The translations under genes and the position numbers were made by a program. From positions 1 through 26,149 of the forward strand of contig NZ_MRTH01000061.1 of assembly GCF_001956045.1 (NCBI RefSeq): 26,149 bases of DNA. Reading direction: 5' to 3'. Shown here piece after piece: positions 487 to 14,758 of the stretch. The stretch comes from Paenibacillus sp. FSL H7-0331 (lineage in GTDB: Bacteria; Bacillota; Bacilli; Paenibacillales; NBRC-103111). Each line of letters begins with the position of its first letter. The stretch's first letter is position 1. The notes under the pieces were generated by a model that was not told the DNA's origin, did no database searches, and saw only the letters and a list, made by a program, of their open reading frames with translations.

Positions 487-2541
487 TTATGTTTTTTTCA
501 AGTAGCTGTTAACCAGTTGCGTTCGATTCCTGACATTCAACTTCCGAAATACTGCTGTCAAATGCTTCTTGACCGTTACTTCTGTAATATACAAGTCCGC
601 CGCAATTTCTTGATTCGTATAGCCATTCTCCAGCAGCCCCACCACTTCTTTTTCCCGCTCGGACAGCATCGACATACCATCATCCTGCTGCTTGGAATGA
701 TCTACAAGACCGAAGGACGCTATCATTTTGTTCAAATAATCCTGCAGCTTGCCGCCCCTCGTATCGAGAACGTAATATGGCGTAGGGGTGTTAATGTCAT
801 AATCGTAATGTGCAACGTTTTTCACCTGCTCGCACCCCAAGCTAAGGTGGAATTCCTTTAAGAAGGAGAGCTCCGGAGGAGCAGTCGTCACGACATAACC
901 GGAAGAAATAAGCAGTGAGATGAACGTTAGCCCTGCAGTTGTACGTATCGCCACGTCCTCAAAATCCGTCACATCGATCGTTTTCACAAAATAACCCGCA
1001 ATATGTTCCTTCGGCACCCGGAGTTCCTTTAGCTTATGATCCGGCAGACTTTGGAAATAAGTGGATGACGGCGGGTGAGTTAGCAAGTAGTCAAGCGTTC
1101 CTGCATGAATCGGAATGATTGCCGTCAGGCCGCATATTGCCCCCTGCTGATCTCTCATCAGCTTAATAATGCCAGGATCGAGTTCGTAAAGCTCTTGAAG
1201 ATGAATATGCTTAATCGGGTAAAAACATTCTTCTTTAGAAATCATATACTCAAACCTCTCGCCCGTGTCCGGGTTCTGGAGAGGAAGGCAAACTTCCTTC
1301 AGATTGATGATACGATTTTCCAAATACTGCTCAGCCTCCGCCCAATTGGACGGATTCAACGTCTCCATGAGATACGGAGTAGATTTCTGAAAACAGAAAT
1401 TGCGAACAACATGATCGCCAATATAATAGTACCATTCAACGCCTTCCCAAGCGATCGTCTTTCTCTTGGACGGGTTGGTCATCCTGCTGTAATAATATTT
1501 GATGCAGCACTTCCATAACCAGTCGTAATGCTCAGGCTGGCGCAAACGCAGCTGATAGCGGATGGCATCCCGCATCAAATCATGAAGGATCCAACCCCTA
1601 TCCACTCTCCGTATGAAGGAAAGTCCAACCAGCCTTTGGAATAAATCCGTCTTTACTTGTCGATCCAATACATAGGAGAGCAGCTCCTGGTTAAAATGCC
1701 GAAGTACAGCTACGGCCTCTACGAGCTCCCTAAGATTGTCGTCCGGAACCTCTTGTAACCAGATGCTCACGATATGCTCGAACACTTCGATTTCATCCAC
1801 CAATTCCAAGCCATGAATGTTCTGAACCATCGTCGTCGAGACGATCAAGGACAACGTGAGCGGATGTCCTCTAGTTTTCATCCACACCTGTTTGATCATC
1901 GGCTCCTGAGAAATGCCCGAGCGCTCCAAATATTGCTTAACGGACAAATAATCCAGATCCCCAATGGGCATCCGATGTATCCAATGGCGCCATGCCGGAG
2001 AACTGAGCCATATGCCTTGCAAGGGAAATCTTCCCGCAATGATAATCAGGATTTCCGGATGCAATTGTGGAAGGAGTGCCTCTTTCAGCCAGTGCTCCAT
2101 ATCACCCATGTCCTCGAATGTGTCAAATGCGAGGACAAGCTTCTGATTCGCCACCTTTTCCCTCAGGATATCATGGCATAGCTCTAAAAGCGCCTGTGGC
2201 TCGGCAATCTGCTGCAGCTTCTCTATCGGATAGCCGAGCATACGCAACATTTGCGTGCAGAAGTCCTGCGGTGTATGAGAGAATCCGCGGCTGTCCATTA
2301 ACAGAAAAGCGGCATTCACATGCACCGCCAGCCGACGGAACTCATCGATTAAATAGCTTTTTCCTACGCCACCGGTACCATAGAGATTCAAGATCCGTCC
2401 CTGTTGTCCGCCGTCAATTAATTGGTGCAAGAAATACTGGATTTCGATGTCCCGTCCTACCAAATAATGTCTTTCCAGCAGGTCAATCTGGACAGCTATG
2501 CGTTCCTCGGGACCGCCTACCTTCACCTTACCATCATACAT
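487..2541 (-). CDS. ATPase/LuxR-type transcriptional regulator
   Basis: A 684-aa regulator. After VGRDIEIQYF (28-37) comes a Walker A motif GTGGVGKS (55-62) and a Walker B-like strand LVLAFD ending at D140, so the N-terminal third is a STAND/AAA_16-type NTPase like those of MalT- and LAL-family activators. The last 60 residues (625-684) are a LuxR helix-turn-helix with SEREKEVVGLLENG, TNQEIAADL and TVKKHLTAVFRKL. The region around 440-600 holds no pattern I can name firmly; it has alternating strands and helices and loosely resembles an acetyltransferase-like fold. Proteins of this build use nucleotide state as a switch and bind DNA as activators; the inducer here is unknown. The ATG at 2541 has only a modest upstream AAGGTAGG. 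A terminator follows directly. Confidence 0.8.
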   Translation of the reverse strand: MYDGKVKVGGPEERIAVQIDLLERHYLVGRDIEIQYFLHQLIDGGQQGRILNLYGTGGVGKSYLIDEFRRLAVHVNAAFLLMDSRGFSHTPQDFCTQMLRMLGYPIEKLQQIAEPQALLELCHDILREKVANQKLVLAFDTFEDMGDMEHWLKEALLPQLHPEILIIIAGRFPLQGIWLSSPAWRHWIHRMPIGDLDYLSVKQYLERSGISQEPMIKQVWMKTRGHPLTLSLIVSTTMVQNIHGLELVDEIEVFEHIVSIWLQEVPDDNLRELVEAVAVLRHFNQELLSYVLDRQVKTDLFQRLVGLSFIRRVDRGWILHDLMRDAIRYQLRLRQPEHYDWLWKCCIKYYYSRMTNPSKRKTIAWEGVEWYYYIGDHVVRNFCFQKSTPYLMETLNPSNWAEAEQYLENRIINLKEVCLPLQNPDTGERFEYMISKEECFYPIKHIHLQELYELDPGIIKLMRDQQGAICGLTAIIPIHAGTLDYLLTHPPSSTYFQSLPDHKLKELRVPKEHIAGYFVKTIDVTDFEDVAIRTTAGLTFISLLISSGYVVTTAPPELSFLKEFHLSLGCEQVKNVAHYDYDINTPTPYYVLDTRGGKLQDYLNKMIASFGLVDHSKQQDDGMSMLSEREKEVVGLLENGYTNQEIAADLYITEVTVKKHLTAVFRKLNVRNRTQLVNSYLKKT

Positions 2542-2917
2542 AGGATATACCTACCTTCGAATTACATTATGGGGAGAAGAGTGCGATGCAGCAAAGTACG
2601 TTCTTAGCCTTCTAAAAGTAAAACGGTCAGGATCATTTTGCAAACCGCAGCCCAAAAAAACACGATAAAAAAAATGCAATCTGAGCAGCAATATTTAAAG
2701 GCGCTGTTTTATAAATATATAACTACAATTCTTATCATTTTATCACTATTCGGAAAAGATTACTTAATGTATTCTTACTACATTATTTAAACTATTTTTA
2801 TTCCATATTTTTATTACCCAAATTACAAAAAAGCAGATACCGTTTGACCAGCACCTGCCGAATTCAAGCAACGCTATTCTTCTATTCTACATCTAGCCAA
2901 TGATCAAGACTGGCATT
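2542..2917. other. AT-rich intergenic region
   Basis: 376 bases without a credible gene. It must hold the promoter of the LuxR-type gene, but I cannot pick out a convincing -35/-10 pair. A weak minus-strand hairpin with an A/T tail at 2827-2858 is listed separately. Confidence 0.5.
2827..2858 (-). terminator. Weak terminator after the YozG-like gene
   Basis: On the minus strand GCAGGT pairs with ATCTGC (one G-T wobble), with a further four-base inner stem, and six T follow. It lies about 60 bases after the stop of the helix-turn-helix gene at 2918. Confidence 0.45.
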
Positions 2918-3142
2918 CTATCGTATCCGTTTGTCTTCGTCGCTTTTGTACTCCAAAATATCACCTGGCTGACAATCCAATGTCTTACATATCGCTTCTA
3001 ATGTTGAAAAACGAACCGCTTTTGCTTTCCCATTTTTCAGAATGGAAAGATTCGCCATAGTAATTCCAACCCTCTCCGAAAGCTCCGTTACGCTCATTTT
3101 TCGTTTTGCTAACATCACATCAATATTAATAATAATTGCCAT
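2918..3142 (-). CDS. YozG-like Cro/CI-type helix-turn-helix regulator
   Basis: A 74-aa single-domain regulator. MAIIINIDVMLAKRKMSVTE opens it, then SERVGITMANLSILKNGKAK gives the helix-turn-helix and FSTLEAICKTLDCQPGDILEY the closing helices, the pattern of the small Xre-like proteins paired with DUF2975 membrane proteins. The ATG at 3142 is preferred over the in-frame GTG at 3151 because GAGG sits 8 bases upstream of it. The gene follows the DUF2975 gene with almost no gap, so the two form an operon. By analogy it probably controls that operon. Confidence 0.85.
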   Translation of the reverse strand: MAIIINIDVMLAKRKMSVTELSERVGITMANLSILKNGKAKAVRFSTLEAICKTLDCQPGDILEYKSDEDKRIR

Positions 3143-3152
3143 ATGCTCCACC

Positions 3153-3635
3153 TCAGACCGTTAAATCATTTTCTGATTTTATATTAATAGCTTCTTGTAA
3201 AAGTCTTTGGAGAACAGCAGCAAAAACGGCGATCACCATAGAGGCGAAAATAATGACCAATCCCATTGGTATGAAACTTGGAGGGTCAACTCTCTTCCCC
3301 ATGAGATAGTAGAGTGGCATACCTAGCAGGTACAAGGTACTGATTGTGATGGCACAGTATTTTATATTCTTTAAAACCTTTACCGATAATTCCGAGAACG
3401 CTTGGTTCTTATCAATATAGCTTAGAAGTTTAAAAGCTTGATACAGAGCAAAGTAAAAGGGTATCGCTGCCGCGTACATATCGATTAAAACGAGAGATTT
3501 CATATAAGCAATATCTGGATACAATTCTCCAGCAAAATTCCCGATCTTAGGCAACAAAAATATGCACAATGCAAGAACTGGGATTCCTATAAAAATAACA
3601 GCTAGCTTTAAAAACAATGTCGTAACTTGTTTCAT
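3153..3635 (-). CDS. DUF2975 family membrane protein
   Basis: A 160-aa protein with four hydrophobic segments: LFLKLAVIFIGIPVLALCIF near the N-terminus, LIDMYAAAIPFYFALYQAF, YCAITISTLYLLGMPLYYLM, and FIPMGLVIIFASMVIAVFAA, the last followed by an amphipathic tail LLQEAINIKSEND. This layout, plus the YozG-like gene directly downstream, fits DUF2975, a family of unknown function. The ATG at 3635 has GAGG eight bases upstream; the longer reading starts at a GTG (3644) inside the ribosome binding region. A wrecked second copy lies just upstream. Confidence 0.8.
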   Translation of the reverse strand: MKQVTTLFLKLAVIFIGIPVLALCIFLLPKIGNFAGELYPDIAYMKSLVLIDMYAAAIPFYFALYQAFKLLSYIDKNQAFSELSVKVLKNIKYCAITISTLYLLGMPLYYLMGKRVDPPSFIPMGLVIIFASMVIAVFAAVLQRLLQEAINIKSENDLTV

Positions 3636-3670
3636 AAAAAGCACCTCGTTAATTAAATTTTACCGAAACG

Positions 3671-3791
3671 TTAATCATTTTCTGGTTTAATTCAAAATGG
3701 CTTTTGAAGTGCGTCCACAATGGCTGTCTGCAATTCCAATCAGAAAAATAATTACCTTTAAGAAATTGGTTCAACCTTGTTTAACATTCAT
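3671..3791 (-). pseudogene. Remnant of a second DUF2975 gene
   Basis: The leader GAGGTGCTTTAA-ATG copies the ribosome binding site and start of the intact gene (GAGGTGCTTTTT-ATG). It then reads MNVKQG, stop, TNFLKVIIFLIGIA, matching KQVTTLFLKLAVIFIGIP of the intact protein. In another frame the 3' end reads ALQKPF, stop, IKPEND, matching LLQEAINIKSEND at the intact C-terminus. Only about 120 bases remain of roughly 480, so a large internal deletion joined the two ends after a tandem duplication. Confidence 0.7.
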
Positions 3792-3823
3792 TTAAAGCAC
3801 CTCACTGATTTAATGATAAAATG

Positions 3824-3852
3824 ACTTTAACATACGATTTATCGTTTTGCAA
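3824..3852 (-). promoter_or_regulatory. Candidate promoter with overlapping palindromic operator
   Basis: On the minus strand TTGCAA (-35, 3852-3847) is 17 bases from TAAAGT (-10, 3829-3824). The spacer holds the palindrome ACGATTTATCGT (3834-3845). The 9-mer TATCGTTTT occurs at 3840 and again at 3861, 21 bases apart. The position fits transcription of the DUF2975 remnant, DUF2975 and YozG-like genes, and the palindrome is a candidate operator for the YozG-like protein. Confidence 0.4.
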
Positions 3853-3913
3853 TAAATTAATATCGTTTTTAACTATATTATTATTGTTATTATTATATCC
3901 TTTTAATTTTGAC

Positions 3914-3948
3914 AAAAATAAAAAGCATTTCTCATTACAAAGAAATGC
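3914..3948 (-). terminator. Terminator facing out of the Tn7-like element
   Basis: A perfect 8-bp stem (GCATTTCT with AGAAATGC, 3925-3932 and 3941-3948) is followed on the minus strand by a T-rich tail. It lies outside the left end of the element and would stop transcripts leaving the kinase gene; before the insertion it would have stopped read-through from glmS. Confidence 0.55.
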
Positions 3949-4065
3949 CTCTACTTTAAAATGTTTAAATTTACTACATGTTCAACAAAACTGCTCGTTA
4001 GTTTAGCGCCGGTACTTGAGTCTAGTACTTTATTTCTCAGTCTAATACTTTATTTTCACCAAACA

Positions 4066-4070
4066 AAAAA
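4066..4070. repeat. Target site duplication, left copy (AAAAA)
   Basis: AAAAA directly precedes the TGT terminus at 4071 and matches the five A after the other terminus (14735-14739). Five bases is the duplication length of Tn7-family transposition. The sequence is homopolymeric, so the exact register is uncertain by a base. Confidence 0.75.
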
Positions 4071-4204
4071 TGTCAGGTGATAAAAAACTTTGGAACCAAT
4101 TTTGTTGATTTTATTGAGTTTGCCGCGGCACGTGATAAACACGAAAAATAAAAAGTCTGAAACCACTAGTTATTACCATGTAAAGAAAGTTGGGACCTTC
4201 CTCA
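4071..4204 (+). repeat. Tn7-like left end with three spaced TnsB-type sites
   Basis: From the terminus TGTCAGGTGAT, a GGAACC core appears at 4092-4097, GAAACC at 4159-4164 and GGGACC at 4192-4197, each preceded by an A-rich stretch and AGT or ACT (for example AAAGAAAGTTGGGACC). These match the unit of the right end. The wide spacing is the left-end pattern of Tn7. Confidence 0.8.
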
Positions 4205-4416
4205 AATAAGCCAATAATTCCCCATCTTACACTGGTAATCTAAGGACCATATAGCTTCCTGATATGATAATTCATGCGATACAGTTACATTTAACCAAAG
4301 CATATTAATTTTACATAGGGTAATTTCAAATATTTTCAATGGGTGCAAAGTACTGGGTATCAGCAACAAACATGCTGTGTGCTTTGTATAGTCCCTATTC
4401 GCTGAGTTCGCTCGTT
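4205..4416. other. Non-coding interior of the left end
   Basis: About 210 AT-rich bases between the last left-end site and the stop codon of the kinase gene. No gene and no good intrinsic terminator are visible. Confidence 0.5.
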
Positions 4417-6540
4417 TTAATAATCATTTAAAACGAAACGTATATCGGATGGATACGGAGTATCCTTCAAAAGGCTGATTAATAAATCATGAGAATTAAG
4501 AAAATCCTCCCCAATTATATGTGCTATTTCTTGAGAAAGTTTATCCTGACCAGCCAAATTACCCATAATATCAACCAGTATGGCTTGGGCTAAAGGCACC
4601 TTCTTTTCTAATGCAACTACTAATATCAAGTTTAAAGTAGATATCTGCGCTACAAGACTGCGTGATGATTTATAAATTACATTCAAATGCTCTGAAAGGT
4701 GACTCCACTCCCCTTCATTACAGTCTATCACCCTAATAATGTTCACTTTTGCTATTTGTATAAATGGTACCATTACCGTTTCATGCTTTGCACATTCCAT
4801 AAGCACATCATTGGGAATGGATAAGAATGGTTTAACAAATTTTTCAACGACTTCATTCGATTCTTCAATATTCGCTGTAGATAGACATTTTAAAACGTGC
4901 TTCACATCAGAAAAGAAATCTTTTAATTCATAAGATCTTAAACTACCAAATAAATAATCACTTTGAGCCAAGCTATTATTAAAATCATCTATTAACTCTT
5001 GGACAGTTTGATACCTTTTAGAACGATCCTCTTCCATTGCCTTTCCAACAATAGGTTGATATTTAATAAGCGACCTGAATCCTCGCTCGGGTGATTCTCC
5101 ACTAAATATGAAATACATTATGGCACCTAGCGAATAGATATCAGACAGAGAATCCGCATTTTTCAAACTCTCCTTTTGCTCTGGAGCAGTAAACGCAGCT
5201 CTTCCATATGACATGTTAGAATGTCTGGTAATTGAAGAAAGCGATTGGTCATCTTTCGCCAGACCAAAATCAGCAATCTTCGCCACTATAGTCCCGTCAC
5301 TGCTGGAAAATATCAAGATATTATGCGGGGCTAAATCCCGGTGACTTATTTTAAAATTATTATGTAGATAAGAAGCGCCGCAAAGTATATCTTTAAATAT
5401 ACGTAATTTTATTTCCTCCGACACGGCAGGATTTAATTCTAACCACTTCTCTAAGGAAGTTTCCGCTAATGGCATTGTGAATAGAAAGGGTTCTTTATCG
5501 AGTTTTATTTTATCGACTTCAATAATATTAATATGAGATTTCTTTTCTCGTAAAAGCCTGACCTCTCTTTTAAAGCGCAGTAAGTAGTCCTCCCCTTCCT
5601 TTCCATGTTCTTGAATAAACACTGACTTCTCAAAGAGTACTTTACAAGCCATTTCTTTTTTTGCAATCAAATCGAAAACTCTATATACTTCAGCAAACCC
5701 ACCAAATCCAATTTTTTTCAATGGAATTAGGTGATTTTTTTGTACTTCTCCATTTTGGTCTTCTAACGTCCACAAACGACGAGCTAATCTATTGGACTGC
5801 GGGCAGAATAAAATACGATACCCATATAAAATATGTGTAATCTGTTCTTTATCAGGGTTTAAATTGATGTCCCTGCCTTTATCCAAATGATTTAAAACTT
5901 GTAATGCAAATAACATCATCTTACCGCCATCCGAATTAGGAGCTAGAGCATAAAAATCGCCTGTAAGTCTATGGGAGAATAGCGGTAAAAAGGTATCGTT
6001 ACCCAAAGGTAAGTTGTCAAAAATTTCTTTCAATAGGTTAAGTAATTGATTAAGTGAATTCGGCTTGTTCTTATACATCAAATGAATAAATGATGCATTT
6101 CGATAGCTCGATATGAATGAAACAAATCTATAGAAGGGGCTTTCTCTTTTAGTAAGCCTCAGAAAAGTTTGAAAGAACAGTTCTTTCTTTTTTTCAAAAT
6201 TGTGTTTATCTTCGCTTTTGGACGTTAAGTTTCCCAAAAAGTATAATTGTAGAAGATCGTTCATATCCAGACCTTCAAATGAATTCTTATATTTTGTTTT
6301 CATAATAGCTTTCTCAAATTTTGCTGCAGTAATCGTGATTGGCTGGCCATCCCTGTATATCTCACCAAAAAAACCTTCTAACGTTTGCAGTTGGTTTGGT
6401 GATAGATCGCTAAGGACGACTTTTGTCCCCTTGACGATTTTTCCACGACTCCGGTATTTTCCCTTGAAAAGTGTAAGTATATCGCTAAATTCTTTCTCAT
6501 CTCGAAAAATATTAACCAGTTCTTCTAATGAAGACTCCAT
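4417..6540 (-). CDS. JetD-like N-terminal region fused to a Hanks-type Ser/Thr kinase
   Basis: A 707-aa protein. Residues ~15-130 (ILTLFKGKYRSRGKI, LSPNQLQTLEGFFGE, ITITAAKFEKAIMKTKY, LLQLYFLGN) and LPLFSHRLTGDFYALAP (185-201) follow the pattern of the N-terminal half of type III Wadjet JetD (DUF3323/TIGR02679, whose TGDPHALD-like motif they echo). Where the DUF2399 Toprim domain should come there is an intact kinase: glycine loop IGFGGFAEV (277-285), Lys300, Glu326, HRDLAPHN (400-407), DFG (424-426), APE (452-454), Asp467 and a late arginine (506/509). Residues ~530-707 are helical without a known motif. It follows jetC by 83 bases on the same strand, with AAGGAAG 7 bases before the ATG, in the jetD position. 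Base composition is clearly more AT-rich than jetABC, suggesting a different history. All kinase catalytic residues are present; the substrate is unknown. The kinase call is firm, the JetD relation is from motif memory. Confidence 0.85.
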   Translation of the reverse strand: MESSLEELVNIFRDEKEFSDILTLFKGKYRSRGKIVKGTKVVLSDLSPNQLQTLEGFFGEIYRDGQPITITAAKFEKAIMKTKYKNSFEGLDMNDLLQLYFLGNLTSKSEDKHNFEKKKELFFQTFLRLTKRESPFYRFVSFISSYRNASFIHLMYKNKPNSLNQLLNLLKEIFDNLPLGNDTFLPLFSHRLTGDFYALAPNSDGGKMMLFALQVLNHLDKGRDINLNPDKEQITHILYGYRILFCPQSNRLARRLWTLEDQNGEVQKNHLIPLKKIGFGGFAEVYRVFDLIAKKEMACKVLFEKSVFIQEHGKEGEDYLLRFKREVRLLREKKSHINIIEVDKIKLDKEPFLFTMPLAETSLEKWLELNPAVSEEIKLRIFKDILCGASYLHNNFKISHRDLAPHNILIFSSSDGTIVAKIADFGLAKDDQSLSSITRHSNMSYGRAAFTAPEQKESLKNADSLSDIYSLGAIMYFIFSGESPERGFRSLIKYQPIVGKAMEEDRSKRYQTVQELIDDFNNSLAQSDYLFGSLRSYELKDFFSDVKHVLKCLSTANIEESNEVVEKFVKPFLSIPNDVLMECAKHETVMVPFIQIAKVNIIRVIDCNEGEWSHLSEHLNVIYKSSRSLVAQISTLNLILVVALEKKVPLAQAILVDIMGNLAGQDKLSQEIAHIIGEDFLNSHDLLISLLKDTPYPSDIRFVLNDY

Positions 6541-6623
6541 AAATACACTTCCTTGATAGCTCTAGCGCTATTGATTCAACTGCGTTTTTAACTCGAGCCT
6601 TTCGAAATGAAATACCATTTTGT

Positions 6624-9600
6624 TCACTCCACTTCTAGTTGTCTCTTTCCGTTCCAATGATAACGACGAAAACCCATATGTGGAGAAGAAGGCTGCCGCA
6701 AAATTGTGACGATTGAAAGTGATTTTACAGTCCGATAGCAGCCCCACAAATCATACGAATTCATGATGTAATCAAAATCAAAGTCTTGAATCATATTGAA
6801 CATTTTCTCTTTATTGTTGGAATCTACTCCCGCAAATGCCTCATCAAGCGTGATTAACCTTGCTGCGGTATCTGATGCACTCATAAGGATTGCGTCGATC
6901 GCCGCAAGCAGTGGCATATACAAAATAATCGCTTTTTGACCATTGCTATATCTCCCAAAATTGCGGTTTCCTACTGTTTCTGATCCCACCCCTTTATCAA
7001 CCTTCGTTTCAAATACAAACCATTTCCGGTAATCCAAAATCTCTTTGTAGGCCTCCAGTCTGGTCATTCTAAAATCTTTTTTTGTTCGTTGTTGTACGGC
7101 TTCGATGCGCGCACGGAAATGAGCTGCAACTTTTTCAAGATCGGAGGGATCGATGAATCTACTGTTACGACTTAACAAATCCACAAGTTGTTTTGTCTTT
7201 AATGTATCGTCTTCTACAGCATCCTTCGTATTCCAGTCCAAATGAATCCTAAGTCCCTCGAACTCGTGGAACCGCTTGTTTATTTCATCAACCCATTGTC
7301 CAGCTTCATGAATTCGAACCTGGATTGTACGTCCGATCTCGTTAATGATAATATCTGTAAACAGTTCTTTTTCTTTATCCCCAATATTTTGTTTTAACTT
7401 AAGCTCGATATCAGATAATTCCTGAAGCAACTCCAGCGGTGAACATGGAACCCCGCCGTTACTCTGCAGGCTTAGTGTAAAATATGAAATTAGTCGATTT
7501 AGCGCGTCTACATCGGTTCTTCCGATTTTCTCCTTCACTTCACTTTCCGCGTTCCAGGGTTGTTCTTGTTGGCGACGTAGACGGTAGTCTTCAAGATCGC
7601 CTCGCACCTCTCTTTCCACATCTAAAAGACGCACGAGTACATCTTCACGGTTAGGAGCACTTACACGGTCCTGCCCTAATATTTGATCGGCCGTGTAAGC
7701 AGAAAACGGACTATTTATGGTTTGGAGCTTACGAAATTCTTTATACCACACGTTCTCTCTTTCCGAGGCTTGTAAAACAGCTGTTTTGAGTTTTTCAATT
7801 TCTTTTTTTGCATCGTCGATTTGTAGTGTGAGTTGGTTAAATACCTGTTCTGCTTGTTGCTGACTATCTTCAGCGTCGTTAAGCTGCAGGTTCGCTTTCT
7901 CAATTTGTTTAAACACGTCCGAGTTTGAATCCATGGCTTCTTGCAAGCGCTGAATGGTCCTTTCGAGCTCCGATTGCTTGTACGATAATTCATCGTAGTT
8001 CTCTTGATACTCCTCTACAACGGGTTTCAAAGAATCCAGATGTCTCCTGCTCTGGGCAATCCTCTTCTCCACTTCCATTCGTTTTTCGGCAAGCGCGTCT
8101 ATTGCCATGATTTCCTCTTTATATTTCCCGCATTGTTCGAGGGTATGGTTGCAAACGTCCAGGCGAAGCGGGATATCCATATCACCAATTAAACGCATAA
8201 CATGATTTCGAACATTAAGGGTTTCTCGTCGAATGGACTCATAATGCGAATATGCTTCCTCTTTTTCCGAATCCCGACGTTTAGCATCTCGTTTTTCTGC
8301 ATCTTGCTCCCGATAAACATCCTTAATTTCCTGCGTGGAAGGAATCTTCATCCATGTTTGGACTAGTTCGTCGATCTTGACCTGCGCCGCGCGTAGTTCA
8401 CGGCTTTGATCCGATAAATGATGTTCTAATTCTTCTAGTTGCTCTCGAAGAGCAAGAAAGCGCCGCTGACGAGCCTCTTCTCGAGCCCGAAGACCGACAT
8501 ATGTCTCACTGCATCCAGGCGCAGTTCCTTCTAGGAAGCCGCTACGGAAAACGCCATCCTCACCGATGTACCCTTCTTGATTTTCGTCAACTGAAATTCC
8601 TTGCAGAACACGCTCAATTGTTTTCGTATCGATTTTATCACTAGGAACAGGCTCCATCAGATCACCCAGATGCTTGCTTTTCGGCGCTTGTGTGCGAAGT
8701 ACAACCGCTTGACCAGTTGCCTTTGCTTCATATTCCTCAGGTACAATGACAGCTTGGAGCAGTCCGGAACGTTGAATGACGGACTCGATACTTTTTCGGA
8801 TAGGGTCCGAAACGGTTTCCTTGAACTCGACAGCTTCAAAAAAACGAATATATGGGATTTTAAGCTCATCAAGGCCATTCCATTGTAGTCGCTCCTCTTT
8901 CTGCTCAGGAGGTTCCACAAACGGTGCTGACAGAACCTTCTCATATTCAATTTGAACTTTCTTGATTTCACTGGTTAGCCGCTGAACATGGTACTCGGCT
9001 TCCCTTTTTTGGGTTTGGAATGGTTTTTCCCGAGACTCTAAAATCTCTTGCTGCCAAGAATGAAACTTTTCCTCTTCTTCACTATATTCATATAAATCGC
9101 CTAAAATCCCTTGCAATGCTTCCCACTCTCGTGTTTCAATTGATAGGCCGTGATCAGTTGACCAACTTTCGATGCGTTCGAACAACCCGACTCTGCACTT
9201 TTGAAGCTGCTTGTACAACGAGTCTATTTTTACAATCGAAGCATTGTATGCCTCTAGTTTGTTTTCAAACTCAGTTCGTTTTTGCATGGTTTTCGCTTCT
9301 TGTTCTTTATAGCTTTGTAGATTTTTTTCAATTTCTTTTAATCGTGTAATATGCCGATCAATTTCTTCTTTCCACGATGCAATTAAACTAATCTGATCTA
9401 CCGTCGTCGAAAATTGACTAACAAACCGATCGTGGTAGTCGAACTTGATCGACGTTTCATACTCTTTCAAGTAATCGAGAATTCCTTGGATCTCATCCCT
9501 AATTTGAAGTTCATCCTTAACTGCCTCATCGACGGCTTGCTCATTCTTGCGAACATCCGCCCTAGAATTGCGGAGTTGGGTTTCCTTCTGGCCTAACTTT

Positions 9601-10649
9601 TCTTTTACTTGATCAAATTGACTTTCCATTTCTCGCTTCTTTTTTTCAGCTTCGAAGATATCCTGATGAGCTTCTTTAAGCGTATTAACAGTTACTCCAA
9701 GTGCTGTAATTTGTTGCTCTGATTCTTCGATTCGCTTTTTCGCATCTGATTGTCTTTGGGTCATCTCTTGCAAGTCACTTTCTTTTGTGATAAGACGACT
9801 TTGCTCACCTTTGAACAGTTGAGAAGCGCGAGAAACATGCTCGGCAAACTCGAAGAACAGAGCAAATTGGTAAGCTTCATAGGCTGCGCTCAGCTTTTTC
9901 AATGCCTCTACTTCAGATGTTGTCTTTGTTAAGAGTTCTTCTTGCTCAGTAATTTTTGATACAATATTCGTTAGCGACTCCAAATCGTTATCAGATAGCT
10001 CTGGGAGCGCATCCGTCAAACTTGTATTAATAATGTTAGGCCCAACATCCTTGCTGATTTTGGGTGGCCGCAGTTCAATTAATAGCTTGATATACATATG
10101 GAAAGTGTGCATATTTTGAAATCCGAACAACAGCCGATTGACCTCTCTCGCATATTCAGCCTTATGTTGCGTAATGAACGCTCCTTTGAAACGGTCACAG
10201 AAATCACGATAATCGAGCGGAGCCTTCCCATCCCTTGTTTGGTCGTATAGTAACAAGTCTTTCCCGACCTGCTTTCCATTTGTGACAATGAAATACCAAG
10301 TCGTTAAATCCCTCGACTTACGTACGCCCGAAAGGCCCATACCAATGGTTATGAGCTGCTCCCCCTTACGAAATTCTATGTAAAGGTAGCCGTTTCCGTC
10401 TTTCTTTTGATTGACCGCCTCTTCACCAAGATGAAGGTCAATCAACAAACGATCAGTACGCTTTTGAGGATCAAGGCGAGAAGGGTTGTAATTCCCATCA
10501 AGCAGCAGGGGCAACATCAAAGTCGAGGCTATCGTCTTCCCGCTAGCATTATCACCGCGAATAAACAGTTTTCCGTCCGATAGTTCAATTTCCGTATCGG
10601 CATGATACCAAACATTAAAATAACCAATTCTGGTCGGTTTCCAGCGCAT
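6624..10649 (-). CDS. jetC: Type III Wadjet JetC-like SMC ATPase (TIGR02680 type)
   Basis: A 1341-aa SMC/MukB-like protein. The N-terminus KPTRIGYFNVWY, then GKLFIRGDNASGKTIA with Walker A GDNASGKT (32-39), then LPLLLDGNYNPSRLDPQKRTD, is the signature of the TIGR02680 family. Two long coiled-coil stretches rich in E/K/Q flank a globular hinge-like part around 590-720. The C-terminal head has an ABC signature-like YSNGQK (~1234-1239), Walker B LITLDEAFAGVD with D1269-E1270 and a D-loop. The family dimerises with JetA and JetB and extrudes DNA loops, which lets Wadjet sense small circular DNA. Its ATG overlaps the end of jetB by 35 bases and has AAAGGAGG 9 bases upstream. All ATPase motifs look intact and the length is normal for the family. 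Confidence 0.93.
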   Translation of the reverse strand: MRWKPTRIGYFNVWYHADTEIELSDGKLFIRGDNASGKTIASTLMLPLLLDGNYNPSRLDPQKRTDRLLIDLHLGEEAVNQKKDGNGYLYIEFRKGEQLITIGMGLSGVRKSRDLTTWYFIVTNGKQVGKDLLLYDQTRDGKAPLDYRDFCDRFKGAFITQHKAEYAREVNRLLFGFQNMHTFHMYIKLLIELRPPKISKDVGPNIINTSLTDALPELSDNDLESLTNIVSKITEQEELLTKTTSEVEALKKLSAAYEAYQFALFFEFAEHVSRASQLFKGEQSRLITKESDLQEMTQRQSDAKKRIEESEQQITALGVTVNTLKEAHQDIFEAEKKKREMESQFDQVKEKLGQKETQLRNSRADVRKNEQAVDEAVKDELQIRDEIQGILDYLKEYETSIKFDYHDRFVSQFSTTVDQISLIASWKEEIDRHITRLKEIEKNLQSYKEQEAKTMQKRTEFENKLEAYNASIVKIDSLYKQLQKCRVGLFERIESWSTDHGLSIETREWEALQGILGDLYEYSEEEEKFHSWQQEILESREKPFQTQKREAEYHVQRLTSEIKKVQIEYEKVLSAPFVEPPEQKEERLQWNGLDELKIPYIRFFEAVEFKETVSDPIRKSIESVIQRSGLLQAVIVPEEYEAKATGQAVVLRTQAPKSKHLGDLMEPVPSDKIDTKTIERVLQGISVDENQEGYIGEDGVFRSGFLEGTAPGCSETYVGLRAREEARQRRFLALREQLEELEHHLSDQSRELRAAQVKIDELVQTWMKIPSTQEIKDVYREQDAEKRDAKRRDSEKEEAYSHYESIRRETLNVRNHVMRLIGDMDIPLRLDVCNHTLEQCGKYKEEIMAIDALAEKRMEVEKRIAQSRRHLDSLKPVVEEYQENYDELSYKQSELERTIQRLQEAMDSNSDVFKQIEKANLQLNDAEDSQQQAEQVFNQLTLQIDDAKKEIEKLKTAVLQASERENVWYKEFRKLQTINSPFSAYTADQILGQDRVSAPNREDVLVRLLDVEREVRGDLEDYRLRRQQEQPWNAESEVKEKIGRTDVDALNRLISYFTLSLQSNGGVPCSPLELLQELSDIELKLKQNIGDKEKELFTDIIINEIGRTIQVRIHEAGQWVDEINKRFHEFEGLRIHLDWNTKDAVEDDTLKTKQLVDLLSRNSRFIDPSDLEKVAAHFRARIEAVQQRTKKDFRMTRLEAYKEILDYRKWFVFETKVDKGVGSETVGNRNFGRYSNGQKAIILYMPLLAAIDAILMSASDTAARLITLDEAFAGVDSNNKEKMFNMIQDFDFDYIMNSYDLWGCYRTVKSLSIVTILRQPSSPHMGFRRYHWNGKRQLEVE

Positions 10650-11835
10650 GCTTAACGTCCTCCTTTGGCGGTACTTCTTCTTCTGCTATTTCACCTGCCA
10701 CACGGCCTAATGCATCACTAAAAATCCATTCATCGTTCACTACCTTCAACAGGCCCAGTTGCTTCATATAGTCGGCAACTTCTCCCCATAGCGCTCGATC
10801 AGACAGGCTGGACTTCGCTAAATGATCCTGATTCGCCCTACGGACTGAAACAAACAGATCGAAGGCATCCTTGGCATGAAGCGCAACATAGCCACGGTGA
10901 TTCGACCAATTTTCACCTTGATCAAGCCGATCACGTAAATGAGTCCCTATCGCAGTGACGATATGAGAATGTGTGTTATAAGTAGGATAGACACTCTTCC
11001 CTTCTCTGGGTTTGTCATGGACTAGAAGCCAGGTGGAGGCATACCTCTCTAGAAATACCCCTTGAAATACTTCCTCCAGCTTTTGCTGCATGCGAAGGCC
11101 GTGTCTTTCTGCATAAATCTCTTCATCTTGTGATAATTCGGATAAAAACAGGCAGCCCTGCGCAAATAAACGCCTCCAAATTTGCTGTTCATATAGTATC
11201 CCTTCTTCGATTTCCTCTTGATGAAGCGCCTCTCTAAGTAGAATCATGTTGCTAAATTCATATAACGGTACACGAGTCTGACGAATCACGTGCCTAAGCC
11301 CATTGGAGACTTGAATGAGTAGATCATAATCTTCGCTGTCTCGAAATTGGTCAATGGTTCGGTCGAACATGAGAAGAAGCCGTTCTTGTTCCAACGTTTT
11401 AATTACGCGGATTAGACTTGTACGAACTCCATGATCAGACCAAGAAATGGCATCTGGTCCTCCAGGATAATATGCTTTAATGCTTTCAAGCAACTCACGC
11501 AGCACAAATTGTTGATCCTCGCCTTTCTCTTCCATAAACGCCAATACACAAGCATATAAAACAAAATCCATTTGGTATTTCAATGAGTGTGTAGGGTTAG
11601 GATCGAACACTCTCCGTTCGGGGCGTTTGATCAAACGAACATAGCCATCTCCCATGTAGATAGGGTAATGGAACCATTCCCGAAAAACAGCTTTTAGTTT
11701 GTGCTCGTGACTTCGAATGCGAGAGTAGAATTCAGGTTTATGTTCGCTATAGACCCACTCTTCGGACCAGAGCAAAAAGACTAAGGTTTGGATTTCTTCG
11801 GCTAGGGCTTCAGCGTTACTCACCTGCAACACCAT
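10615..11835 (-). CDS. jetB: Type III Wadjet JetB-like subunit (DUF2398/TIGR02678)
   Basis: A 406-aa protein matching the DUF2398/TIGR02678 pattern: an early FYSRIRSHEHKLKAVFREWF, then GYVRLIKRPE, a Tyr-rich FVLYACVLAFMEEKGEDQQ, and LLLMFDRTIDQFRDSEDYDL followed by a winged-helix-like middle. JetB acts as the KITE-like dimer bridging JetA and JetC. It overlaps jetA by 20 bases and jetC by 35, so the three are translationally coupled. The ATG at 11835 lies directly after GAGG; TTG or GTG codons a few residues in are possible alternative starts. Confidence 0.87.
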   Translation of the reverse strand: MVLQVSNAEALAEEIQTLVFLLWSEEWVYSEHKPEFYSRIRSHEHKLKAVFREWFHYPIYMGDGYVRLIKRPERRVFDPNPTHSLKYQMDFVLYACVLAFMEEKGEDQQFVLRELLESIKAYYPGGPDAISWSDHGVRTSLIRVIKTLEQERLLLMFDRTIDQFRDSEDYDLLIQVSNGLRHVIRQTRVPLYEFSNMILLREALHQEEIEEGILYEQQIWRRLFAQGCLFLSELSQDEEIYAERHGLRMQQKLEEVFQGVFLERYASTWLLVHDKPREGKSVYPTYNTHSHIVTAIGTHLRDRLDQGENWSNHRGYVALHAKDAFDLFVSVRRANQDHLAKSSLSDRALWGEVADYMKQLGLLKVVNDEWIFSDALGRVAGEIAEEEVPPKEDVKHALETDQNWLF

Positions 11836-13318
11836 CCTCTAACACTATTTCAATGTCATCCATGGTAAGTTCTCCATCTGTACATTTCATCTTAATGCGG
11901 TCATCAGTAGCGACAAAAGCGCGAAATTCACGACCGTCAGGTAAATAAGCAATATCATGATTGCGTAAGCCCTCGGTTTCCATGTACAACAAAGTTTCCC
12001 TTAATGCCGGACTGATTTCATCCAGATCTCGGATTCGAATTCGCCCGTTCACAGAGATCGCTTCCATTTCGCTTCGCAATCGTTCCTCTTGCTCTTTATG
12101 TTCCATTTCAATTCGCTGGCGCTCGAGTGGGTCTTCAAGCAGGATCGATTTAACTCGCTTAACAAAATCCCGCTTTTTGCGGGGGATTAGTTCGATCTGC
12201 TCCGCAGGCAACTCCCATACGGACTTGGTTTCACTGTCTGAAGTCTGTATATCGGTGATTACCATTTGTGAAGCGGGACCAATTCCCTTTATATAACCAA
12301 ACAATTCTTTGCATTCTTCATCTTCGTTGGCCTTGAAAAATAGGGCCGCAAGATGTAAGTAATCATGCTTTCGGTTGGTGTAGTGGAAGAGCCGATCACT
12401 TACTTGTCTAGACAGACGTAGGACTTTGCTGATTGCGGTTTTGGTTTGCTCCATCAGAAAGTAGTACCCTCCCTCTTGGGAGCTTTCATTAGCAAACCAA
12501 TTAATCATTGATTGCCACTGCTTTTTGTGCAATTCCACGCGCTCTTCTTGATTTGTGTCTTCCAGGGTAGGAAGTTGAATCCGATTGATCTCGTAATCTA
12601 CGATTAAATAAATGACATCTTCAATGTAATCTTTGGAAACGGACATCAGTTTCTTTAAAATGCGAACTTGTTGCTTTTGAATATCGCGAACAAATTCGTC
12701 CAAGTAGCTAACAAATTTATTTTTATGCTCAAGGAACTTGTCTGAGAGATAAGCCGCTTCCATGTCAGTGCTGTTCACGTGGGAGAGATAGTCCGACGTA
12801 TCAATACGCAAGCGATCATGCCGCCCCATGATTTCGTTCCAAAGGTTATATAGTTCGGATGGTTCTTTTATCGTTGCACTTTTGAAACGATCGAGTTCTT
12901 CGATAATACGGGCCGCTAAATTCTTCTCTAGTGACCCCCTTACTCGATTTGCCCGTCGCTCCATCGTTGCGATCATTTCTTCAACATCTATGAGTGCATC
13001 GGTGGCTCGAATCAAATGTTTTTTTCGCTTGAAATCTTCATATGCCATGTATTTGACATTCTCTTGTTGTGATATCTCAATATTCCCCCACTCTTTCATC
13101 GTACCAAGATCCATCTCCAAATCCTCGATTGAGTAGTCAGGGAACCGTTCAACAAACTCATCCATTTGCCTTAAAGCGGTATATATCTCTTCCGTTGTGA
13201 GCATGGTTCTAAATGTACGATGATGTTCGTACAGAACGCGGGCAATAGGCCGATAGCGATCAGTCCGTTGGTTTGCAACCAAATAAGTGAATTGTTCCAA
13301 TCTATTAAAAAGACTCAT
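11816..13318 (-). CDS. jetA: Type III Wadjet JetA-like kleisin subunit (DUF2397/TIGR02677)
   Basis: A 500-aa protein matching DUF2397/TIGR02677: FNRLEQFTYLVANQRTDRYR, then an early winged-helix part (YRPIARVLYEHHRTF), MKEWGNIEISQQENVKYMAY, then long helices (LVDVEEM-like to LEKNLAARIIEEL) and a C-terminal winged-helix-like part. It is the kleisin-type subunit that closes the JetC ring. The ATG at 13318 is chosen over 13360 because AAAGGAG sits exactly 6 bases upstream; the longer reading runs through that site. First gene of the cargo operon, with a -10-like TATAAT upstream. Confidence 0.88.
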   Translation of the reverse strand: MSLFNRLEQFTYLVANQRTDRYRPIARVLYEHHRTFRTMLTTEEIYTALRQMDEFVERFPDYSIEDLEMDLGTMKEWGNIEISQQENVKYMAYEDFKRKKHLIRATDALIDVEEMIATMERRANRVRGSLEKNLAARIIEELDRFKSATIKEPSELYNLWNEIMGRHDRLRIDTSDYLSHVNSTDMEAAYLSDKFLEHKNKFVSYLDEFVRDIQKQQVRILKKLMSVSKDYIEDVIYLIVDYEINRIQLPTLEDTNQEERVELHKKQWQSMINWFANESSQEGGYYFLMEQTKTAISKVLRLSRQVSDRLFHYTNRKHDYLHLAALFFKANEDEECKELFGYIKGIGPASQMVITDIQTSDSETKSVWELPAEQIELIPRKKRDFVKRVKSILLEDPLERQRIEMEHKEQEERLRSEMEAISVNGRIRIRDLDEISPALRETLLYMETEGLRNHDIAYLPDGREFRAFVATDDRIKMKCTDGELTMDDIEIVLEDGVAGE

Positions 13319-13324
13319 ATGATT

Positions 13325-13357
13325 CTCCTTTAGAGATTTACCCATTCTATTATTATA
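13325..13357 (-). promoter_or_regulatory. Ribosome binding site and -10-like element of jetA
   Basis: AAAGGAG (13331-13325) decides the jetA start. A consensus TATAAT lies at 13357-13352, but no good -35 is found 16-18 bases further up, so if this is the promoter it needs help from an activator or another sigma factor. Confidence 0.4.
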
Positions 13358-13360
13358 CAC

Positions 13361-13765
13361 TTTTTACAACTATAAGAATGGAAGATATTCCATAGGTGTT
13401 TTTCCACTAATCAATCAACGTGTAACAAAACCTACCAGTGCCAGCACTTCAACCATAATTGAATTTGCCTGTGAATGATTATGAAAGTCTGCTTGCTGTT
13501 TCTTCGGCTTACCCGCTTTAAAATGAAATGAGCGATGGTTCGGAACCACCGCTCTACTCTCCCATCCATTTGCGTAACGGCACTAATTAATACTGTCAAT
13601 CCAATAATATTCTTTTCAAGAGGTGATTCACACATCGGATTTCGACACGACCATGGGCCAGAGCCAATGATAATACGGTTGCAAAACAGTGACTACTATC
13701 GAGGAAATTTTCAACAGATCCAGTTAAGAACCGCATAAGTAGTAGATAAAAAATAATATATGAGT
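13361..13765. other. Intergenic region between jetA and the TniQ remnant
   Basis: About 400 bases with only weak ORFs (67 codons on each strand) that have no recognisable family and no good ribosome binding site. A 25-bp interrupted palindrome at 13530-13554 stands out. This is where the missing 3' half of tnsD, and probably other transposon genes, have been lost. Confidence 0.5.
13530..13554. repeat. Interrupted palindrome with a TGGTTC core
   Basis: Arms GAGCG-n-TGGTTC and GAACCA-n-CGCTC around a central G. The core shares TGGTTC with the end repeats of the element. It may be an operator for jetA or a terminator without a T tail. Confidence 0.45.
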
Positions 13766-14536
13766 TCAGAATTCCGATTTAAATAACCTTTTTATAGTTC
13801 GCCGTTCCAAAAAGTAACGTTTTTCTGGGATTACTGAAGCCAACCTTTGTTCTGAATAAGACTCAAAAAAGTCATTAATCAATTTAGTTTTATGAATAAG
13901 ACCTGAAGGGTGTATGTAACCTTTCTCCCCCAAGCAAGATAACAACTTTACACTTAATTCATTGGCATCTGTATCACCCTGATTTTCCATTAAGTAAATA
14001 AAATCTGTCATCAGGTCATTCTGCAGTTGATTCTCTATATTTACTACCGAGTCGGGGATGGGGTCTATTTTATGACCTAAGGGACAGACTGGCTTTTTTA
14101 AATAAAGCTGGCCAGAGTTGCTTGTTAGATCAAAACTACATTCCGGGCATTTGCTTATTAAACTGCAGTTGTGTTTATGACATATATTAATGTGTTTTAG
14201 CTGGTGATATCTATTTAAGTAACATTCTCCGAAATTAGCGCAATCCTCTGAAAGGCATGCTGGACAGTACCTTAAATCTTCGTTGATTAGTCCCTTTGGT
14301 CCGCTTCCAGACAGTTGCCCGGCAAGAGATGTTCTTCCTTCAGATCCATTTAATATATCATTTAATAACTGCTCATTTTGTTTTGTTGTCAAAAAGGGCT
14401 TTAGCAATGGGTATACAGTGTTGTTATTTAGATAAAACGATACGTTATCTATCGAGGGCTTATATTTATCCTGATCCAGTTCACTTAATGTCCCCTGTGA
14501 AACCCCAATCATATTGGCAAACTCCACCTGATTCAA
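13766..14536 (-). pseudogene. Xre-like HTH joined to a truncated TnsD/TniQ domain
   Basis: A 256-aa open frame. Residues 1-30 (NQVEFANMIGVSQGTLSEL, DQDKYKPS) are a Cro/CI-type HTH. From ~31 on it is TnsD/TniQ: TVYPLLKPFLTTKQNEQ, LRYCPACLSED, YLNRYHQLKHINICHKH, CPEC, with the zinc ligands C91, C94, C119, H122, C130 and C133 in place. The usual TniQ N-terminus is missing and the protein ends soon after LIHKTKLINDFFESYSEQ, where full TnsD proteins continue for some 200 residues of target DNA binding. In the open frame the HTH continues upstream (YQKIRKFKDL) with no start codon. A well-placed GGGAGG and ATG (14583) lie one frame off and stop after 16 codons. So a start-proximal frameshift, or an unlikely TTG start at 14536, must be assumed. 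Best read as a deletion scar. If translated, it could still bind TnsC or DNA. Confidence 0.75.
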
Positions 14537-14601
14537 ATCTTTGAACTTCCGTATCTTCTGGTACGATCCCCAATCGAAGTCATTATTTCCTCCCTATAAA
14601 G

Positions 14602-14638
14602 AAAAAAGTCCCGATGAGGACAATTCATCATCGGGACT
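14602..14638 (-). terminator. Strong terminator inside the right end
   Basis: A perfect 11-bp stem (14607-14617 with 14628-14638, arms AGTCCCGATGA and TCATCGGGACT) followed on the minus strand by six T. It lies between the end repeats and the first start codon of the element, so it shields the element from glmS read-through or attenuates a promoter in the right end. Confidence 0.85.
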
Positions 14639-14642
14639 GATT

Positions 14643-14734
14643 TCAGCGGTTCCATACATTTTTTACTGGTTCCACAGTTTCTTTACTGGTTCCAGACTTT
14701 CTTTACTGGTTCCCAACTTTTATATCATCTGACA
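14643..14734 (-). repeat. Tn7-like right end, four tandem 20-bp TnsB-type sites
   Basis: Reading inward from the terminus (TGTCAGATGAT), the core GGAACC appears four times at an exact 20-base period (complements at 14708, 14688, 14668, 14648). The unit is GGAACCAGTAAAGAAAGTCT, and the innermost copy is degenerate (GGAACCGCTGAAATC). Tight tandem sites in the glmS-proximal end are the right-end pattern of Tn7. Confidence 0.88.
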
Positions 14735-14757
14735 AAAAAGAAGGGGTTTCCCCCTCC
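14734..14757 (-). terminator. glmS terminator, invaded in its T tract
   Basis: On the minus strand GGAGGGG pairs with CCCCTTC around GAAA, followed by six T, starting one base after the glmS stop codon. The transposon terminus falls within this T tract, and the target duplication rebuilt it. Confidence 0.85.
14735..14739. repeat. Target site duplication, right copy (AAAAA)
   Basis: Five A directly follow the terminus of the right end and repeat those before the left end. Confidence 0.75.
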
Positions 14758-14758
14758 T

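Follow-up and report, generated by a model that had tools for sequence, protein, structure and literature searches.

A type II Wadjet operon in Paenibacillus carrying a serine/threonine kinase in place of the JetD nuclease half

The jetABC-kinase operon and its fourth gene

Wadjet gene clusters are known to cleave small circles of foreign DNA. We analysed a stretch of 26,149 nucleotides from Paenibacillus sp. FSL H7-0331 (NCBI RefSeq assembly GCF_001956045.1, contig NZ_MRTH01000061.1, positions 1 to 26,149), referred to below as the window, which carries a Wadjet operon whose fourth gene joins the N-terminal domain of JetD to a protein kinase. The four genes, jetA-jetB-jetC-kinase, form a cluster on the minus strand and every one is an open reading frame: jetA and jetB overlap by 20 bp, jetB and jetC overlap by 35 bp, and a gap of 83 bp separates jetC from the fourth gene. 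The genes, and the three parts of the fourth protein, are as follows.

11816..13360, minus strand: jetA, 514 aa, DUF2397, kleisin subunit (Pfam E=2.5e-74; PADLOC JetA2 E=8.8e-93)
10615..11835, minus strand: jetB, 406 aa, DUF2398, KITE subunit (Pfam E=4.5e-47; PADLOC JetB2 E=2.7e-62)
6624..10649, minus strand: jetC, 1341 aa, SMC-family ATPase (PADLOC JetC2 E=0; TIGR02680)
4417..6540, minus strand: kinase-JetD, the fourth gene, 707 aa, ATG start (Pfam, NCBIfam and PADLOC matches)
5809..6540, minus strand: JetD N-terminal domain, residues 1-244 of the fourth protein (DUF3323; hhalign, segment identities and trees)
4966..5739, minus strand: Hanks-type Ser/Thr kinase, residues 268-525 (Pfam; residue invariance; dN/dS, the ratio of nonsynonymous to synonymous substitution rates)
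4420..4965, minus strand: all-helical tail, residues 526-707 (hhalign; secondary structure)

In NCBIfam, jetA scored 192.1 bits with TIGR02677 and jetC 559.7 bits with TIGR02680 (cut-off 462.85), both above cut-off; jetB scored 82.4 bits with TIGR02678, below the cut-off of 124.65. The ATPase motifs of JetC were present: Walker A at residues 32-39, the signature at 1230-1238 and Walker B at 1263-1274. PADLOC named the four genes JetA2, JetB2, JetC2 and JetD2, which is type II Wadjet, and the type III label given in the initial annotation of this DNA was therefore dropped.

That annotation had described the gene in the jetD position as beginning with a JetD-like region, and three profile comparisons bore this out. 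Pfam DUF3323 matched residues 39-223 (E=2.2e-17; 64.1 bits against a cut-off of 26.6), PADLOC JetD2 aligned residues 2-244 to profile positions 2-235 of 430 (E=6.6e-36), and hhalign aligned residues 1-244 of a kinase-fusion profile to positions 18-271 of a nuclease-type JetD profile (234 columns, probability 99.9, E=7e-37). The two hhalign profiles were built from 33 kinase fusions (residues 1-250) and from 63 nuclease-type JetDs, some near-identical, which remained of 67 fetched DUF3323 loci after removal of 2 kinase fusions and 2 loci with no JetD frame. The proposed likeness to DUF3323/TIGR02679 stood for DUF3323 and failed for TIGR02679 as a full family: residues 39-217 scored 35.3 bits where the whole-family cut-off is 196, a shortfall that loss of the C-terminal half would explain.

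Pfam found both DUF3323 and DUF2399 in 10/10 nuclease-type JetDs scanned, including those of the sister loci described below. The 707-aa protein gave no Pfam match to the DUF2399 Toprim nuclease; where that domain should follow, as the initial annotation had seen, Pkinase matched residues 274-522 (E=2.4e-31). A further trace of the loss may lie in the N-terminal domain itself, where the annotated LTGDFYALA motif was found at residues 192-200. The H and D of the corresponding TGDxHALD motif were kept in 63/63 nuclease-type JetDs; in the kinase fusions the H position was H in 20/33 and the D position (D200) was D in 3/33. Because the D is mostly lost in fusions that have no nuclease half, the last residue of the motif may serve the nuclease.

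The kinase appears complete. K300, E326, H400, R401, D402, N407, D424, G426 and D467 were invariant in 33/33 family members, and of the catalytic residues cited earlier (K300, E326, HRD 400-402, DFG 424-426) only F425 varied, being L in 4/33. We estimated dN/dS by the Nei-Gojobori method with our own script for the three pairs formed by the window and its relatives L158 and L156. The kinase gave a ratio of 0.14-0.18 and the gene as a whole 0.23-0.34; residues 116-245 gave 0.16-0.25, residues 1-115 gave 0.35-0.51 and the tail gave 0.38-0.45. In 2/3 pairs the kinase segment had the lowest value. These substitution patterns point to purifying selection on the kinase. The closest PADLOC models to the kinase were MAD6 (147 bits, residues 250-484) and then Stk2 (129 bits; E=6.2e-38 over residues 274-525). 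The AlphaFold2 model of the whole protein had a mean pLDDT of 84.3 and a pTM of 0.71, and a structure search with it returned kinases alone among the matches listed.

The C-terminal tail (about residues 526-707) was absent from the initial annotation. It was homologous to the tails of the short Stk2-like kinases P0036, P0037, P0038 and P0041 (hhalign E=7e-32). Five short kinases were scanned against the Stk2 profile: the alignment ran to position 487 of 500 for P0037 and P0038 and ended at positions 362-393 for P0036, P0041 and P0121. The window protein (P0001) matched the Stk2 profile in its kinase domain only.

Recurrence of the fusion and exchange between JetABC cores

At least 33 proteins, drawn from the 120 listed of 623 homologues, join DUF3323 to a kinase. 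The 32 besides the window protein were 43-94% identical to it, and the cultured sources named for the fusions were Paenibacillus and one Desulfitobacterium. Source names were mostly protein kinase or serine/threonine kinase, with one DUF3323. DUF3323 matches occurred in 60 of the 394 genomes sampled from the GTDB family. We opened eight of these and confirmed a kinase fusion in each, inspected three other odd places as well, and judged the remainder by frame length. The three odd places proved to be a nuclease-type JetD with an insert (L159), an AraC-like regulator by eye (L160) and a broken nuclease-type JetD (L161). DUF3323 was found in 63/398 genomes of a class-level sample, two of which (G002 and G222) belong to the eight fusions.

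The fusion lay directly behind jetA-jetB-jetC in 8/8 loci opened (L001, L002 and L153-L158), or 9/9 with the window, so the kinase does recur beside jetABC elsewhere. The nuclease loci fetched had the same gene order, jetA-jetB-jetC-jetD. The window's nearest relative, L158, was 93% identical in JetABC. In L157 jetC was split into two reading frames, and in L155 its start was out of frame; some kinase-Wadjet copies may thus be inactive. Beyond these samples, plasmid and phage collections held no place covering 80% of the query, and a viral-contig scan gave five loci, none matching residues 1-250. Among 80 loci listed in a genome-contig scan there were two fusions, two kinases of the second type described below (type B) and otherwise more distant kinases. 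Behind the kinase of one locus (L002:14087-22130) we noted by eye further defence-like genes, among them one for a GHKL-type ATPase and one for a large protein resembling an ATPase.

We built a tree from concatenated JetA, JetB and JetC of the window, the eight kinase loci and 18 nuclease loci. Two more nuclease loci of the original 20, L167 and L170, were left out because jetABC was not found whole. Kinase-bearing cores fell into four places: {window, L156, L158}, {L154}, {L155} and {L001, L002, L153, L157}. The sister of L155 was the nuclease locus L168, and that of the group of four was L169, also a nuclease locus, at 44-45% identity. Both sister loci (scanned as L089 and L090) have JetDs with DUF2399. 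A single clade of kinase-bearing cores was rejected, with a log-likelihood 650 lower and an approximately unbiased p-value (p-AU) of 6.6e-5, in a quick tree (LG+G4) with long branches present. On our reading, this tree would require at least three changes of effector. As a separate observation, the jetC signature (residues 1230-1238) was SNGE in L154 and SNGQ in the lineage of the window, and the remaining kinase loci had SGGE, as did every one of the 18 nuclease loci in the tree.

Kinases and cores had different histories. JetABC of the window group and of the L001 group were about 23% identical, and their kinase domains 60-66%. Within L001, L002, L153 and L157, JetABC was 84-91% and residues 1-115 were 80-83% identical, and the kinases were of two types 56-59% identical. 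The L154 kinase was of the L001/L153 type (83-84%) despite a JetABC only 25% identical, and the L155 kinase was of the L002/L157 type (74%).

Trees of separate segments of the fusion protein located the disagreement. Taking the four-locus group from the JetABC tree, we found that residues 1-115 also grouped L001, L002, L153 and L157 together (SH-aLRT 93, below the program's mark of 95). The same group was rejected by residues 116-245 (p-AU 1.4e-5), 268-525 (9e-7) and 526-707 (1.4e-41, with a program warning of long branches meeting). For L155 residues 1-115, the best match came from the nuclease-type JetD of L168, its sister in the tree, at 48 bits; the best kinase scored 35 bits. Residues 1-115 thus appear mostly to follow the JetABC lineage, and the sequence comparisons indicate that residues 116-707 recombine between JetABC cores. 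Since the first segment mostly follows JetABC and the other segments disagree with it, we infer a docking role on JetABC for residues 1-115 and an exchangeable effector in the remainder of the protein.

A second SMC operon with the same type of kinase

A second group of proteins, most of them 588-640 aa long, had a kinase domain about 42-53% identical to that of the window protein and a different N-terminal region; we call these type B. Their alignment held 42 proteins from the homologue list, P0035 among them. In 6/6 loci (L003, L004 and L189-L192) the type-B kinase, here 617-636 aa, was the fourth gene, behind genes of 417-464 aa and 191-218 aa and then an SMC-type ATPase of 957-959 aa. The operons lie at the following positions.

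L003:3949-10828
L004:3965-10759
L189:3840-10531
L190:3840-10552
L191:4971-11649
L192:3807-10425

The type-B ATPase matched the SMC hinge at 22.7 bits (cut-off 22.5) in both proteins scanned, and its gene matched the JetC profile (probability 94.8) and the JetC and Smc2 chains of the PDB. The small subunit gave a weak JetB1 match (E=5e-4) in one of two scanned. PADLOC gave weak JetC1, LmuB and JetB1 matches only for the first three genes, and NCBIfam gave nothing over cut-off for the four genes of L004. We tried the kleisin-like and KITE-like genes as JetA and JetB and rejected both: the profiles did not match (probabilities 0.5 and 0.7) and no solved structure was a convincing relative. The N-terminal region of the kinase (L003, L004) was likewise rejected as a JetD domain: it matched neither the JetD profile nor that of the DUF3323 kinases (probability 0.2), had no solved relative and, with a poor AlphaFold2 model (pLDDT 63), gave no structure match at E<=0.001.

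The type-B N-terminal region was found in 4/394 genomes of the family sample; no type-B SMC was found in a 100-genome genus sample, in a search run without a positive control. The type-B four-gene operon is possibly an undescribed SMC-kinase defence system. The same kinase type in the same slot of this operon supports the idea that the kinase serves SMC sensors, even though these comparisons did not link the type-B N-terminal region to JetD. We also noted by eye that P0035 (804 aa) has the type-B N-terminal region together with the JetD-kinase tail, a natural hybrid of both architectures.

Proposed action, alternatives and neighbouring genes

The operon shares with type II Wadjet jetA, jetB, jetC and a JetD N-terminal domain; it differs in that the DUF2399 nuclease half is absent, with the kinase and helical tail instead. 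In Wadjet, mostly as studied for type I, JetABC is the sensor and JetD the effector (PMC10586767; citations here and below are to excerpts of the papers). Like Stk2, the staphylococcal abortive-infection kinase, the fourth protein has a Ser/Thr kinase domain. Its tail may also be related to that of Stk2, by way of the short kinases P0037 and P0038, whose alignment to the Stk2 profile extends beyond the kinase. Stk2 consists of a single locus (PMC11341870), whereas the window kinase forms one protein with a JetD domain and is encoded behind an SMC complex. The phage defence KKP (kinase-kinase-phosphatase) works through phosphorylation of many host proteins (PMC11341870) and has two kinases and a phosphatase; the window operon has one kinase and an SMC sensor, and among the eight proteins scanned at 487-16588 (all but a 77-aa frame at 2918-3151) there was one kinase and no phosphatase. 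MAD6 of MADS was the top PADLOC match of the kinase domain, but in NCBIfam the window kinase scored 91.6 bits, under the curated MAD6 cut-off of 460. The MADS operon presumably differs from the jetABC-kinase operon. We know of no replacement effector in MksBEF, whose core resembles JetABC. That core has no JetD nuclease (PMC10586767).

Our observations confirm what the initial annotation saw in the fourth gene and support its interpretation, in which the path from DNA sensing through the kinase to cell arrest is one that we infer. We consider it probable that the operon is a type II Wadjet in which a kinase with an Stk2-like tail replaces the Toprim nuclease, so that small foreign circles likely lead to phosphorylation and to host arrest or death. 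The sequences themselves show the gene order, the JetD N-terminal domain, the loss of the nuclease half, the intact and conserved kinase under purifying selection, its recurrence and its exchange between divergent cores. JetABC would sense small foreign circular DNA by loop extrusion, with residues 1-115 of the N-terminal domain holding the kinase on JetABC. Two JetABC motors converging on a fully extruded small circle would bring two kinase subunits together to activate each other. The active kinase would phosphorylate several host proteins and, by analogy with Stk2, which phosphorylates multiple bacterial proteins and causes cell death (PMC9146914), this would stop growth or kill the cell and so block the spread of a plasmid or phage.

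Several results weigh against this reading. The link between the tail and Stk2 is transitive, and just P0037 and P0038 of the five short kinases reach the end of the Stk2 profile. The best NCBIfam kinase match was PknB_PASTA (107 bits, cut-off 450), ahead of MAD6; this top model is of a housekeeping type and no defence kinase. L154 has a distant JetABC, yet its residues 1-115 shared 70-74% identity with the L001 group. Solved structures held no sequence match to the JetD N-terminal domain, so that docking on JetABC is argued from homology. In 2/8 kinase loci jetC is disrupted and the kinase gene is still open. Finally, no substrate signal was found in JetABC: a scan of eight kinase operons (L157 of the nine dropped) against nuclease loci gave five columns that were serine/threonine in 8/8 kinase operons and rarely so in nuclease loci, with no excess over the 2 to 9 columns of eight other residue classes, and these candidate phosphosites were rejected.

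The kinase might instead act on the invader. Its substrate would be a phage protein, or a plasmid protein of replication or partition, bound close to the extruded DNA, and the plasmid would be lost with no arrest of the host. JetABC is predicted to place the effector on the target DNA, Wadjet acts against plasmids (PMC10586767), and conservation of the kinase domain is compatible with any substrate. Plasmid proteins are diverse, however, and a conserved kinase would presumably need broad specificity to follow them; the nearest defence kinases described, Stk2 and KKP, have numerous host proteins as targets (PMC9146914, PMC11341870). We think such a target unlikely. A distinctly unlikely alternative is that the kinase tunes its own JetABC motor or chromosome structure, making the operon a nuclease-less condensin-like SMC system and not a defence. 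Kinase and SMC are co-encoded in two types of SMC operon, as this would predict, but the patchy presence (8/394 family genomes), the disrupted jetC genes and the recombining effector resemble defence, and the serine/threonine columns specific to kinase-bearing JetABC show no excess.

Destruction of DNA by a separate nuclease encoded elsewhere, recruited or activated by phosphorylation, would agree with DNA cutting as the sole Wadjet output in the literature excerpts drawn on. The initial annotation had named a separate JetD nuclease serving the operon as a point that would tell against it. No DUF2399 was found in 8/8 carrier genomes of the family sample, and the search found it in 2/2 control genomes; DUF2399 was the one nuclease family searched, and neighbouring genes were scanned in the window. 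We regard this route as improbable. Chance fusion or a decaying locus with no conserved function, to which the disrupted jetC genes might point, is hardly credible, given 32 relatives at 43-94% identity with invariant catalytic residues, the low dN/dS of the gene and its kinase, and four open genes in the window; conservation already contradicts it. The reading that we prefer thus remains that of a kinase acting on host proteins.

More broadly, we think it likely that Wadjet, besides cutting DNA, is a modular DNA-shape sensor whose effectors can be exchanged, that a suicide kinase replaced the JetD nuclease on several divergent cores through recombination within jetD, and that an independent SMC-like operon was equipped in a like manner. 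If this is true, SMC loop extrusion would feed phosphorylation signalling in bacteria. To our knowledge, this would be the first SMC motor controlling a protein kinase as an immune output. A kinase-bearing Wadjet did not turn up in our literature search, whose coverage excluded preprints and many journals. A kinase in the JetD slot would separate sensing from killing, Wadjet output being otherwise always JetD cleavage in the excerpts drawn on, and phosphorylation would give a readout of plasmid sensing that is free of cutting. The idea predicts that completed JetABC extrusion is a general activation signal, and the parts of JetD needed for activation and not for cutting should lie within the shared N-terminal 245 residues. 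Because PADLOC JetD2 matches the N-terminal half, annotation pipelines may call the kinase loci ordinary Wadjet.

Two further genes lie beside the operon in the window.

14759-16588: glmS-like gene with SIS and glutamine amidotransferase domains (domain matches)
13766-14536: TniQ-like gene, between the glmS-like gene and jetA (Pfam E=2e-9; PADLOC TniQ_IB E=1e-13)

The glmS-like gene adjoined the operon in 3/3 loci of the window's lineage (also L156:17450-19318 and L158:65-1738) and had no match in the fetched stretches of the other six kinase loci. The window's TniQ-like gene had no match in the eight other kinase loci. The glmS region is the classical attachment region of Tn7, and the TniQ-like gene is perhaps a remnant of a Tn7-like element.

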